Source: Actinomycetota bacterium (GTDB taxonomy: Bacteria; Actinomycetota; Actinomycetes; Nanopelagicales; Nanopelagicaceae). From it: a DNA stretch of 50,128 nucleotides. Position numbers and translations under genes: made by a program. Below the pieces are notes generated by a model that was not told the origin of the DNA, searched no databases, and was given only the letters and a program-made list of their open reading frames with translations. Below are positions 42,934 through 46,913 of this stretch, piece after piece. How positions within the stretch are numbered: position 1 is the first letter of the stretch; each line of letters begins with the position of its first letter. Location of the stretch: the NCBI GenBank assembly GCA_029977785.1, contig JAPOKG010000005.1, positions 1-50,128 of the forward strand, read 5' to 3'.

Positions 42934-43812
42934 ATGGATGCAGCGCTCAAAGCTTCTTATGAAGAATGTAAGCGGCTTAATTCGCTACATGGGAAGACGT
43001 ACTACTTGGCAACGCTCTTGTTGCCTGCAGAAAAGCGACCGTATGTTCATGCCTTGTATGGCTTTGCGCGTTATGCCGATGAAATTGTTGACGATTTAGC
43101 ATCCACTTTATCGCCGCAAGAGAAGGCGGATGCTCTACGTTCGTGGAGCAGCGGAGTTTTAGCAGACCTTAAAGCTGGCACTAGCAGTGACCATATTGGT
43201 CGCGCCTTAGTTGATACCGCTCGTAAGTTCGATATTCCTCACCAACATTTTGTGGATTTCTTACACAGTATGGAGATGGACTTAACTGTCACTGAGTATC
43301 AGACATATGAAGACCTTCTGGAGTATGTCTATGGCTCGGCAGCTGTCATCGGACTTGAGATGGTTCCTATCTTGGGCTATTCAGATGAACGAGCCTATGA
43401 AGCGGCGAAGAAACTTGGAATTGCCTTTCAACTAGCAAACTTCATTCGCGATGTTGGCGAAGATCTCGATCGCGGTCGCGTGTATTTGCCACTACAAGAA
43501 CTTGCCAAATTTGGAGTAGATCGGGCAGCCCTTGAGCGCCGAACCTTAACTCCAGAGATTATTAACGCCCTCAAGTTTCAAATCGCTCGAGTGCGTCAGC
43601 TGCAAGCAGAGGCAGAGATCGGAATTGCATATCTCGATAAAGTCTCTCGCCCCTGCATCCGTGCAGCCAGTGAGTTGTATTGCGGAATCGTCGATGAAGT
43701 CGAAGCGATCGGATATGACATCTTTAATAAGCGCGCCAAGACCTCAACAGGGCGCAGGGCGCGAGTTGCAGGCGTTGCCTACTTACAAGCAATAGCAGCG
43801 CGTATTCGCTAA
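42934..43812 (+). CDS. crtB: Phytoene synthase CrtB
   Basis: Condenses two geranylgeranyl diphosphates to phytoene. The 292-residue protein has the Asp-rich motifs YADEIVDD (about residues 47-54) and NFIRDVGEDLDRGRVYLP, and HGKTYYLATLLLP at the N-terminus. It is the last gene of crtE-crtI-crtB. Its stop codon lies only a few bases before a TPP riboswitch, so the vitamin transporter gene begins a separately controlled unit. Confidence 0.95.
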   Translation: MDAALKASYEECKRLNSLHGKTYYLATLLLPAEKRPYVHALYGFARYADEIVDDLASTLSPQEKADALRSWSSGVLADLKAGTSSDHIGRALVDTARKFDIPHQHFVDFLHSMEMDLTVTEYQTYEDLLEYVYGSAAVIGLEMVPILGYSDERAYEAAKKLGIAFQLANFIRDVGEDLDRGRVYLPLQELAKFGVDRAALERRTLTPEIINALKFQIARVRQLQAEAEIGIAYLDKVSRPCIRAASELYCGIVDEVEAIGYDIFNKRAKTSTGRRARVAGVAYLQAIAARIR

Positions 43813-43819
43813 AGTACGC

Positions 43820-43905
43820 AGCAACGGGAGCCACATTGGCTGAGAGGACTTCAACCCTGAAGTCGACCGTCTGACTGGTCCGGTAATGCGGATCTAGAAA
43901 TGAGG
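43820..43905 (+). promoter_or_regulatory. TPP (thi-box) riboswitch
   Basis: The conserved GGCTGAGAGGAC (43838-43849) is followed by a GACTTC/GAAGTC stem (P3) and then CTGACTGGTCCGGTAATGCGG (43871-43891), the second conserved core. The layout is that of the thiamine pyrophosphate riboswitch. The 3' end runs into GAGG (43902-43905), the ribosome site of the following PnuC-family gene, and no U-tract terminator is seen. Repression of translation by TPP is therefore the likely mechanism. Confidence 0.87.
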
Positions 43906-43911
43906 TTAAAA

Positions 43912-44502
43912 GTGTTTTCAACTTTCTTTACTGCGTGGGGATATGAAGTTTCTTATCTCGAATTCGTAGCATCCATTGCATCCTTTATCGGTGTTGGTCT
44001 TGGAATTACTGGCAAGCGCATTACCTGGCCCTGGTGGGCGCTCAGCAGCGCTCTCTATGGTGTCTTCTTTCTGCAATATGAACTCTATGCAAGTGCAGCG
44101 CTACAAATAGTCTTTATTGCAGCAGCGATTGTTGGTTGGTTTGGATGGGAGCCAACTGGTGCCAAGCCTGGCCCTTTTAAGAATAAGTACCGCCTGTACA
44201 CCTTGGCAGCGATTGTTGTTGCGACGTTGATACTTGGGCCGGTCTTGAAATCAATCGGAGCCGCTTCCACTTATGTAGATGCCATCTTGTTCTTCGGCAG
44301 TTTAACTGCGCAGATTCTGATGGTCTATGAAAAGTACGACAGCTGGCCGCTCTGGCTCGTTGTAGATCTGGGCTATGTCGCGTTGTATGCAACCCAAGGG
44401 CTGCTCTTCACAACGCTGCTCTATGTGGCATTCACAATTATGGCGGCTGTGGGTTGGAGAGCTTGGTATGGATCTCATAAGCGCACTCTTAGACCTCTGT
44501 AA
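43912..44502 (+). CDS. pnuT: PnuC-family transporter, probable thiamine transporter PnuT
   Basis: The membrane protein of about 196 residues has seven or more hydrophobic segments and the PnuC-family WWALSSALYGVFF, WFGWEPTG and WLVVDLGYVALYATQGL stretches. PnuC members carry nicotinamide riboside, PnuT members thiamine. The TPP riboswitch directly upstream is the evidence for thiamine. I prefer GTG 43912, with GAGG six bases upstream, over ATG 43900, which would place the ribosome site inside the coding region. Its end overlaps the following kinase by 35 bases. Confidence 0.85.
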   Translation: MFSTFFTAWGYEVSYLEFVASIASFIGVGLGITGKRITWPWWALSSALYGVFFLQYELYASAALQIVFIAAAIVGWFGWEPTGAKPGPFKNKYRLYTLAAIVVATLILGPVLKSIGAASTYVDAILFFGSLTAQILMVYEKYDSWPLWLVVDLGYVALYATQGLLFTTLLYVAFTIMAAVGWRAWYGSHKRTLRPL

Positions 44503-45004
44503 AACAAGTGAGCGACCCATCATCGCAATTGATGGGCCTGCTGGCGCTGGCAAAACCACTCTTGCTACCAATATCCATTTGGCGCTCTTTCCCAACTACA
44601 CCTCAACCATAATTCATATGGATGATCTATATAACGGGTGGGATAAAGCGCTCTCTAGCGAGTTAACAGAAGTCCTTACCCATATCGCAATGGCGCATCG
44701 CCAAGGTCAACCAATATCACTCTCCAAATACGACTGGGCCAACGCAACATTTTCTCCAGCAGAACTAATCGACGATGCGCAATTGATAATTCTTGAGGGA
44801 GTTGGAAGTGGGCAGAGCGCAGTTCGTGAATATCTCTGCGCCCTTATTTGGATTGATATCGACGAAAGTAAAGGGTTATCGCGGGTTTTAGAGCGAGATG
44901 GTGAAGGTATAAAAGAACAGATGCAGAAGTGGCTCATGACACAGGAGCAACACTTTGCAATCGAAAAGACTGATAACGCGGCGGATTTCGTACTGACTAC
45001 CTAG
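44468..45004 (+). CDS. P-loop kinase, uridine-kinase-like
   Basis: The 178-residue soluble protein has a Walker A IIAIDGPAGAGKTTLA (about residues 18-33), MDDLYNGWD after the second strand, YDWANATF, the strand LIILEGVGSGQSA and a lid-like ERDGEG. This is the small uridine kinase-like family widely seen in actinobacteria; true substrates are mostly untested. Here it overlaps pnuT by 35 bases and shares its TPP riboswitch, so it may phosphorylate incoming thiamine or a precursor and trap it in the cell. That is inference. I chose ATG 44468 because the family N-terminus lies just after it. Confidence 0.8.
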   Translation: MDLISALLDLCKTSERPIIAIDGPAGAGKTTLATNIHLALFPNYTSTIIHMDDLYNGWDKALSSELTEVLTHIAMAHRQGQPISLSKYDWANATFSPAELIDDAQLIILEGVGSGQSAVREYLCALIWIDIDESKGLSRVLERDGEGIKEQMQKWLMTQEQHFAIEKTDNAADFVLTT

Positions 45005-45014
45005 AATTAGGGAT

Positions 45015-46418
45015 ATGTCTGACCTCACCGGCGAACTTATTGATGGGCGTTATCAGCTCATTCGCCAGATGGCCACCGGTGGTATGGCCAGTATTTACGA
45101 GGCTGTCGATACTCGCTTAGATAGAAAAGTTGCTGTAAAAATCATGCACTCCCATCTTGCCCAAGATGAGCAATTTGTTGAGCGATTTATCCGAGAAGCA
45201 AAGGCTGCGGCAGCTCTTTCGCATCCAAATATCGTTGCTGTGCAGGATCAAGGTTGGAATCAAAATGGCACACCTGCCATCTTCTTAGTGATGGAGATGA
45301 TTGAGGGCCACACTTTGCGTGAATACCTCAATGAACAAGGTCGACTCTCGGTACAAGATGGCATCAAATTTCTATTGCCTGTTCTAAGCGCGCTCTCTGC
45401 TGCGCACAAAATTGGAATTGTTCATCGCGACATAAAGCCAGAAAATATCTTGATCTCTAAAGAGGGACGTATCAAGATTGCAGACTTTGGGTTAGCTAAA
45501 GGCCCACTTCTAGGCGGCACCATGACTGCCGAATCCAGCGTCATTCTGGGTTCAGTCTCTTACCTATCCCCCGAGCAGGTCCAACGCGGTGTTGCTGATT
45601 CTCGTAGCGATGTCTATTCAATTGGAATCACTGCTTTTGAAATCTTTACTGGTAAAAAACCATTTGAGGGTGCAGAGCCTATTCAAATTGCCTATATGCA
45701 CGTTAATAATCGAGTGCCAAAGACAAGCACTCTTGTTAACGGTATCCCGGAAGAACTTTATGAATTAATTTATGCTGCTACTAGCGCTAACCCAGATGAG
45801 CGGCCTCGGGATGCCACAATCTTTAACGAAAAAATGTCACAGATTAGCCATCGACTAAACCCGAAAGAGAATCAGTTAAGCCTAGAACTTGATATCCCTA
45901 TTGAACCGATGCGACCAAAGAAGGCGCCAAAATCTCTTCGTAAGAAACTTCGTGAAATCACTGAAGCTATTCCAGTTCCGGTACAACGTGAAAGCACGGC
46001 AGAAGTTGCAAAGCGCAAGAAAGCGAGCAAGCGGGTTCGCCGCAATCGCAAGATAGCGCTCCTGATGGCTATCGCAGTTGGAATTACAGGCTGGTATGTA
46101 CTCATCGGTCCAGGATCTCGCGTTGTCGTGCCTTCGACAGTCGGTGCGACAGAGGCGGAGGTAACGGCAGCTCTTACTCCGATTGGCCTCAACTCAATTG
46201 TTGTCGAACGTCAATTTAGTGAAGATATCCCTGAAGGTCGCGTGATCCAATCCATCCCAGAAGCAGGTGGACGGATAGATCAAAGCGGCACTGTGAAATT
46301 AATTGTATCTAAGGGGCCAGAACGCTTTGTTATTCAACTCGTCAGAGGCCTTACTCCTGGAGTAGCACGTCGACTTCTTACTGCGATGCCACTTTCGCTA
46401 CAACCGAATTCAGAATAG
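45015..46418 (+). CDS. PknB-like Ser/Thr kinase with PASTA domains, cut by an internal TAG
   Basis: Membrane-anchored eukaryotic-type kinase. The N-terminal kinase domain has YQLIRQMATGGMASIYEA, the ATP Lys in KVAVKIM, the catalytic HRDIKPENIL and the metal-binding DFG of IADFGLAKG. A basic linker leads to one membrane helix (about 347-365), then an extracellular PASTA repeat (VVPSTVGATEAEV to LIVSKG) and half of a second. TAG at 46416-46418 stops the frame within PASTA 2. The same frame continues with the rest of PASTA 2 and two more, to 46913. The kinase domain is complete and probably active; ligand sensing would be reduced if the stop is real. Confidence 0.9.
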   Translation: MSDLTGELIDGRYQLIRQMATGGMASIYEAVDTRLDRKVAVKIMHSHLAQDEQFVERFIREAKAAAALSHPNIVAVQDQGWNQNGTPAIFLVMEMIEGHTLREYLNEQGRLSVQDGIKFLLPVLSALSAAHKIGIVHRDIKPENILISKEGRIKIADFGLAKGPLLGGTMTAESSVILGSVSYLSPEQVQRGVADSRSDVYSIGITAFEIFTGKKPFEGAEPIQIAYMHVNNRVPKTSTLVNGIPEELYELIYAATSANPDERPRDATIFNEKMSQISHRLNPKENQLSLELDIPIEPMRPKKAPKSLRKKLREITEAIPVPVQRESTAEVAKRKKASKRVRRNRKIALLMAIAVGITGWYVLIGPGSRVVVPSTVGATEAEVTAALTPIGLNSIVVERQFSEDIPEGRVIQSIPEAGGRIDQSGTVKLIVSKGPERFVIQLVRGLTPGVARRLLTAMPLSLQPNSE

Positions 46419-46913
46419 TTCAGCACAACTATTCCTAAGGGATATGTCATCGACTCTAATCCACCATCCGGTGAGAAGGTGAAGCGAAATGCGCTAATAG
46501 TTCTGCGGATATCAAAAGGCATTGAACAAGTCGCACTTGCATCGTATGTAGGAAAGAGCTCTGATCAAGCGCTCAATGAATTGCAAGAGTCAGGGTTTGC
46601 CGTGGATTCAACTTATGCATTTAGTGAAACACGTCTTCCAGGTGAGGTCGTGTCACAAAACCCTGCAGGTGGAGGCACCGCGGATAAAGGTTCAAAGGTT
46701 GCCCTCGTAATCTCTAAGGGCACTCAATATGCCTATATTCCAAATATCTTCTCCATTGAAGAAGTTAAAGCGGTGCAGGCACTGAAAGATCTCGACCTCA
46801 AGGTGGTGGTAAAGAAGATTGGTAAGAAGACCGTGAAGAAGGTGACGAATATTTCACCGAAGGTTGGAACCAAGGTAAAGCGTGGCAGTACTGTGACCAT
46901 CACAGTAGGCTAG
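46419..46913 (+). pseudogene. Continuation of the PASTA kinase after the in-frame stop
   Basis: The frame of the kinase resumes directly after TAG 46416-46418 and stays open for 164 codons. It completes PASTA 2 (FSTTIPKGYVIDSNPPSGEK) and adds PASTA 3 (SYVGKSSDQALNELQESGFA) and PASTA 4 (YIPNIFSIEEVKAVQALKD to STVTITVG). A start at ATG 46479 would give a protein without a membrane anchor or signal peptide, so independent function is unlikely. A single base change or an assembly error would restore a 632-residue kinase with four PASTA units. Confidence 0.8.

Follow-up and report, generated by a model that had tools for sequence, protein, structure and literature searches.

In the 50,128-nt stretch of DNA analysed here (the window, from the actinobacterial family Nanopelagicaceae), a TPP-type leader RNA is followed by a PnuC-family gene and then by a P-loop kinase gene. 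This unit is likely a vitamin B1 salvage operon in which the kinase acts as a thiamine kinase (EC 2.7.1.89), a function that we infer from the pathway and the genomic context. PnuT transporters work by facilitated diffusion. In the mechanism that we propose, PnuT would admit thiamine by this route, and the kinase encoded by the overlapping gene would turn it into TMP, which would be trapped inside the cell. ThiL, encoded elsewhere, would then add the second phosphate to yield TPP. Binding of a thiamine compound to the leader RNA would lower translation; the last helix of the leader ends four bases 5' of a Shine-Dalgarno-like site. The locus contains the following features.

42934–43812, forward strand: crtB-like phytoene synthase gene, left edge of the slot (PF00494, 8.7e-70)
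43814–43917, forward strand: THI-type leader aptamer (span of the Rfam RF00059 match), with an atypical P4/P5 pyrophosphate arm
43840–43845, forward strand: CTGAGA pyrimidine-sensing motif
43875–43897, forward strand: P4/P5 (pyrophosphate) arm, CTGGTCCG / GTAATG / CGGATC-T-AG
43902–43914, forward strand: Shine-Dalgarno-like GAGG (43902–43905) and likely pnuT start GTG (43912)
43912–44502, forward strand: pnuT, PnuC-family transporter; the ORF opens at ATG 43900 (PF04973, TIGR01528)
44468–45004, forward strand: P-loop kinase of uridine-kinase/PRK fold, PRK06547-like, proposed thiamine kinase
44531–44560, forward strand: Walker A motif DGPAGAGKTT, residues 22–31
44615–44641, forward strand: HMDDLYNGW, residues 50–58, predicted catalytic Asp and putative substrate side
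44735–44737, forward strand: Trp90, candidate aromatic contact, invariant in 58 sequences
45015–46418, forward strand: Ser/Thr kinase gene, which we take to be pknL-like, right edge of the slot; a homologue lies downstream in most neighbourhoods compared

A first-pass annotation had read a thi-box, a PnuC-family gene and a 35-base overlap with the kinase gene at this locus, and all three are borne out by the RF00059 match, PF04973 and the coordinates (overlap at 44468–44502, 35 nt). The arrangement goes beyond chance, since leader, pnuT and kinase are found together again and again across the bacterial family. The host assembly comprises 1.04 Mb in 90 contigs and is 77% complete. In the window, the pknL-like gene appears as two ORFs (45015–46418 and 46479–46913), while relatives such as L082 have a single ORF of 632 aa; the split is a frameshift or an assembly error.

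The transporter ORF (43900–44502) belongs to the PnuC/NMN_transporter family (PF04973, 1e-38, 133.5 bits). Its conserved start is probably GTG 43912 rather than ATG 43900, because the ATG frame of the relative L086 runs into a TAA ahead of the GTG and GAGG is positioned at 43902–43905. TIGR01528 also matches, at 84.6 bits against a cut-off of 42.45, and the formal call of this model is a nicotinamide riboside carrier. Together with the uridine kinase fold of the partner and a phage PnuC annotated beside a ribosylnicotinamide kinase, this call raises the question whether the pair imports and traps nicotinamide riboside or another nucleoside. In PnuC-NadR systems, nicotinamide riboside uptake is coupled to a kinase; the window unit shares their logic of a facilitator and a P-loop kinase, but has a thiamine-type leader and context. 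We consider a nucleoside substrate highly improbable, given that the leader is of the THI type, with no element for NAD or nucleosides reported by the leader scans, and that the pair is exchanged for thiE, thiO and thiG in the same slot. A PnuC tree, in which the branches are long and a proven PnuT is not represented, places a 92/93 branch between the PnuT proteins of the family and the PnuC proteins of E. coli and a phage. Genomes of the Nanopelagicaceae also encode a second PnuC type, which forms one group on a long branch of the tree (eight rows, 100/100) and is preceded by an FMN riboswitch in six of the 11 such loci scanned. These FMN riboswitches support the salvage reading of the THI-led type. 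On the basis of leader and context, we argue for thiamine over the nicotinamide riboside of TIGR01528.

The gene content of 61 genomes from the same family points in this direction. Thiamine pyrophosphokinase (TPK, PF04263) is found in none of the 61, strong ThiE in six and ThiC in one, yet ThiL exceeds its cut-off in 54; the kinase occurs in 55 (in G011 as a weak match of 52 bits). As ThiL phosphorylates TMP, a genome that lacks ThiE must obtain this compound in some other way, which argues for the salvage reading. The window's own assembly contains ThiL (193 bits), and TPK, ThiE and ThiC are all without a match in this 77% complete sequence.

Kinase and ThiE largely exclude each other. The kinase is missing from G005, G014, G020, G032, G044 and G056; all of these except G056, which is 60% complete, are ThiE genomes. 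G003 alone combines kinase and ThiE, and it also encodes ThiC, ThiM and ThiD. The Fisher p for this exclusion is 6e-6 by genome and 0.02 by genus, the latter both with a single entry for the genus of G003 and with an entry on each side; the independent losses are few, because the ThiE genomes G005, G020, G032 and G044 belong to one genus. A second family (f111) follows the same pattern, with leader, pnuT and kinase and no ThiE in G558, and ThiE without the kinase in G565. Except for G003, the ThiE genomes of the family (L077, L083, L078) have no ThiC match; they may depend on external HMP while making the thiazole moiety themselves. In G011 (89% complete), a divergent kinase with 29% identity lies directly after crtB (L081, 4294–4842); PnuC, ThiE and an over-cut-off ThiL were not found in this genome.

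Enzymes of the uridine-kinase/PRK fold transfer a single phosphate, and this is the fold of the predicted kinase structure. A missing TPK would also fit a kinase that is itself a thiamine pyrophosphokinase and makes TPP in a single step. Such a TPP-forming enzyme is a known PnuT partner: the pnuT-tnr3 of Bacteroides, as described in the accessible text of PMC5613172, resembles the window unit in its TPP riboswitch, PnuC-family thiamine transporter and adjoining trapping enzyme. The window differs in that the partner has a PRK/uridine-kinase fold and is predicted to make TMP, which ThiL would finish in a family with TPK in 0/61 genomes. Because ThiL is kept in 54 of 61 genomes, where it would be redundant beside a pyrophosphokinase, we regard single-step formation of TPP as unlikely.

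Distant homologues of the kinase lie beside ykoEDC and NMT1-type transporters, which often carry HMP, and a kinase for HMP or thiazole alcohol, akin to ThiD or ThiM, could be read from this. For these transporters, the available part of PMC6593275 gives HMP forms as well as B1 forms, and it names PnuT, ThiXYZ2 and YkoEDC2 as B1 transporters. Within the family, 54 of the 55 kinase genomes have no strong ThiE to use the product of such an enzyme, and G003 encodes ThiM and ThiD of its own in addition to the kinase. On account of the ThiE count, we consider this substrate range very unlikely. The first-pass annotation had offered thiamine or HMP/thiazole alcohol as substrates; the first is favoured by the absence of TPK and the retained ThiL, and the second is disfavoured by the lack of strong ThiE.

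The association of kinase and transporter is tight. In 50 of the 55 family genomes with a kinase, pnuT lies immediately 5' of it, and the pair is intact in 76 of the best 80 loci from a named genome collection, so that the linkage expected for TPK-less relatives holds. Five of these intact pairs (L158–L161, L164) lie outside any crtB-pknL slot. The kinase has no adjacent pnuT in G002, where it lies at a contig edge, nor in G003 (the ThiC/ThiE genome), G011, G021 and G033. In G021 and G033 the kinase still occupies the slot, and neither pnuT nor the riboswitch was found there.

A thiamine kinase of the known type could in principle do the job from elsewhere in the genome, which would make the window-type kinase a passenger. 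ThiK has an APH-type fold, and PF01636 matches occur in 61/61 genomes, mostly far stronger than those of five weak-match genomes. Each of these five (G016, G040, G007, G022, G008) has only one PF01636 match, a weak one with a best E-value between 1.1e-4 and 9.3e-4, and no convincing ThiK-type APH candidate was found; in G007 and G008 the matching ORF is 516–529 aa long, unlike ThiK in size. As the pnuT-kinase pair also recurs outside the crtB-pknL slot, we judge a passenger role extremely unlikely. The predicted two-step route from thiamine via TMP to TPP resembles that of E. coli ThiK (YcfN) and ThiL, as far as the accessible text of PMC4112796 describes it, with the difference that the window kinase is a P-loop kinase.

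In three ThiE loci without the pair, thiamine genes take its place. In L077, the stretch from crtB to pknL contains a pair of small membrane ORFs that by eye resemble lycopene cyclases, then thiE, a gene similar to Rv2175c, thiO and thiG, as confirmed by HMMs. L083, of the same genus, has the matching order from crtB to a ThiG-like ORF near the end of the fetched stretch, and in L078 (G014) thiE, identified by the ThiE search, lies between idsA and pknL together with ThiO- and ThiG-like ORFs, which were assigned by likeness to L077. In all three, thiE and thiO/thiG-like genes thus occupy the pnuT-kinase slot, and the riboswitches are of the ordinary TPP type (60.5–68.7 bits). The complementarity of kinase and ThiE, this replacement in the slot and the linkage to pnuT all argue for the salvage reading.

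The kinase (44468–45004, 178 aa) has an intact P-loop and matches PF00485 at 33.5 bits. Its best NCBIfam model is PRK06547 (NF005115), a 'hypothetical protein' model without function, which it matches over residues 7–176 of 178 at 98.7 bits, under the cut-off of 173; the TIGR00235 udk equivalog cut-off of 220.3 is likewise missed (33.7 bits). In the predicted structure (mean pLDDT 96.6), the fold is uridine-kinase/PRK-like, and the best Foldseek matches are uridine-cytidine kinases and phosphoribulokinases (3asz, E 2.3e-10). Residues invariant in 58 kinase sequences include D22, G23, A25, G26, G28, K29, D52, Y55, G57, W58, W90, E110, R143, D144 and G145. By analogy, the Asp would be the catalytic base and the Trp residues would contact the vitamin. 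The kinase is among the fastest-diverging genes in the area: between L082 and the window, its identity is 65%, compared with 66% for EamA, 83% for pnuT, 92% for crtB and 96% for nfo, and between L087 and the window it is 91%, compared with 99% for pnuT and 98% for crtB. The kinase search retrieved relatives named as Candidatus Planktophila and acI, for example the complete genome IMCC26103 (L099), so that the window probably belongs to acI/Nanopelagicaceae. The public MAGs L086, L087 and L097, titled Streptomycetaceae or Bifidobacterium breve, contain the acI neighbourhood, and their titles look wrong.

The leader proved to be a divergent member of its class. A covariance-model check of the proposed thi-box gives an RF00059 match, though a weak one (34.4 bits; E 1.2e-4 for the 1.4 kb scanned), under the gathering score of 54.3, and a default scan of the window returns none. 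It is the sole TPP match with E <= 0.001 in the 1.04-Mb, 77% complete assembly. The pnuT leaders of relatives score 30.2–43.7 bits, and a TPP-type match is present in 17/20 loci of one set and in 9/9 kinase loci of another. The three misses are L006, whose genome (G043) has a leader that our own covariance model R1 picks up at 88.2 bits, and L014 and L017, where the fetched stretch does not include pnuT. R1 finds the window leader at 43818–43904 with 80.8 bits, a score that is not independent since this leader is among the training rows. Among the matches listed, scores of at least 69 bits are restricted to Nanopelagicaceae-family genomes and G558, the next being 61.3. Like RF00059, the window leader has the pyrimidine sensor CTGAGA with P2 and P3, as well as P3a and a UAAU loop; CTGAGA is present in 75/77 pnuT leaders, and the other two start too near a contig end.

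The leader departs from RF00059 in the pyrophosphate arm, where pairs stand in place of the internal loop. In the Rfam alignment, the P4/P5 arm of ordinary TPP aptamers has a small internal loop with AU opposite CG. The window arm has 6 bp, no internal loop and one bulged base after the pairs. In an alignment of 73 pnuT leaders (A4), the stated structure pairs 97.7% of cells, whereas sliding gives 17–44% and shuffling 87%. Two-sided changes number 184, compared with 56 in the shuffles. Columns 76–77/92–93 pair in almost every row and show covariation (columns 76/93: AU 39, CG 19, GC 11). The motif CGxAGG, the 3' side of the pyrophosphate-sensor loop, is found in 0/74 parsed pnuT leaders.

In the E. 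coli thiM riboswitch, C77 and G78 touch the pyrophosphate. According to the accessible text of PMC4112796, the pyrophosphate sensor consists of P4, J4-5 and P5, and pyrophosphate is mandatory for thiM switching. Since paired, covarying positions replace this loop, the ligand of the leader may be other than TPP; it may also still be TPP, bound in another way. We tentatively raise the possibility, which we think rather less probable than its converse, that the variant with its pyrophosphate loop closed into a helix responds to TMP or to thiamine without any phosphate rather than to TPP, and is matched to a new family of P-loop thiamine kinases that accompany several thiamine-type transporters in Actinobacteria. 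A changed ligand is made slightly less likely by the CG that nine of the 73 leaders keep at the loop's place, in eight of them opposite CG, where pairing is possible.

As controls, 47 class-wide and in-family leaders were tried and 39 parsed, with the canonical leader of G003 counted twice (L080, L235). CGxAGG is present in 30/39 and missing in 9/39, in a sample that stems mostly from matches of our own variant model and is biased towards variant-like leaders. The nine are L224, L230, L231, L233 and L237 (all f92), L236, L245 and the pnuT leaders L223 and L232; L236 stands before a ThiO-like ORF. Loss of the loop is therefore not unique to pnuT leaders, and as arms lacking the loop are also seen elsewhere among actinobacterial leaders, in part before genes other than pnuT, it is no proof of a new ligand by itself. 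Among the f92 leaders without CGxAGG, only L224 has a downstream ORF that resembles a permease (by eye). A pnuT leader from f108 (L255) is canonical.

Outside the family, kinase homologues accompany other thiamine-type genes. In L296, a TPP riboswitch (57.8 bits) is followed by ykoE (PF09819), ykoD (two ABC stretches), a ykoC-like ORF (by eye) and a kinase homologue that passes the PRK06547 cut-off at 200.2 bits, and in L294 a homologue adjoins an NMT1/THI5-like gene (PF09084, 162.7 bits). A thiamine link for the entire wider kinase family is unsupported: a TPP riboswitch is found in one of 20 wider neighbourhoods, scanned at the gathering threshold, at which weak variants would be missed, and among 12 homologues aligned with the window DxYxGW is fully missing in three and altered in a fourth.

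Two different kinases can follow pnuT, because f107 and f108 use an AAA_28/NadR-like kinase there, as in the PnuC-NadR pairing. It follows pnuT in G492 (f107) and in G626 and G662 (f108), assigned by HMM in the first two and by 78% identity in the third, and in f108 the two genes sit between crtB and pknL. These genes (L270 3464–4033, L271 2941–3483, L272 3124–3666) may encode another type of thiamine kinase. In f108, ThiE is found in 0/12 genomes and the window-type kinase in only 2/12, so that other solutions exist. On a Novosphingobium plasmid (L303, 2913–4615), a TonB receptor gene precedes pnuC and an overlapping gene of the aminoglycoside phosphotransferase family, and the latter is a possible further kinase partner.

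The kinase homologues beside ykoEDC and NMT1/THI5-like genes, together with the NadR-like swap after pnuT, add to the case for salvage. Weighing against it are the 5/55 kinase genomes without an adjacent pnuT, the TIGR01528 call, the missed PRK06547 cut-off, the single riboswitch among 20 wider neighbourhoods, the aligned homologues with a missing or altered DxYxGW, the f108 genomes that have neither ThiE nor this kinase, and the small number of independent losses.

The transporter and the RNA are already published for acI bacteria. For four acI strains, the accessible text of Kang et al. 2017 (PMC5301498) reports thiamine auxotrophy, with nearly all de novo and salvage enzymes missing, a THI element and a probable PnuT; the pnuC and RNA are of the identical kind as in the window, and the strain IMCC26103 corresponds to L099. 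The term 'uridine kinase' is absent from the main text of that paper. Literature on PnuT/thiamine, thiamine kinase and YkoE, available largely without full text, yielded no earlier assignment of the kinase, and a search for PRK06547 gave no literature match.

Taken together, we propose that three solutions replace one another around a single locus: thiE/thiO/thiG, PnuT paired with a kinase of uridine-kinase type, or PnuT paired with one of NadR type. Should the leader have lost its response to pyrophosphate, it would represent a naturally occurring TPP-type aptamer of altered specificity. For the acI bacteria, which are abundant in freshwater and unable to make vitamin B1, a kinase from a family of hitherto unassigned job probably traps the imported vitamin.
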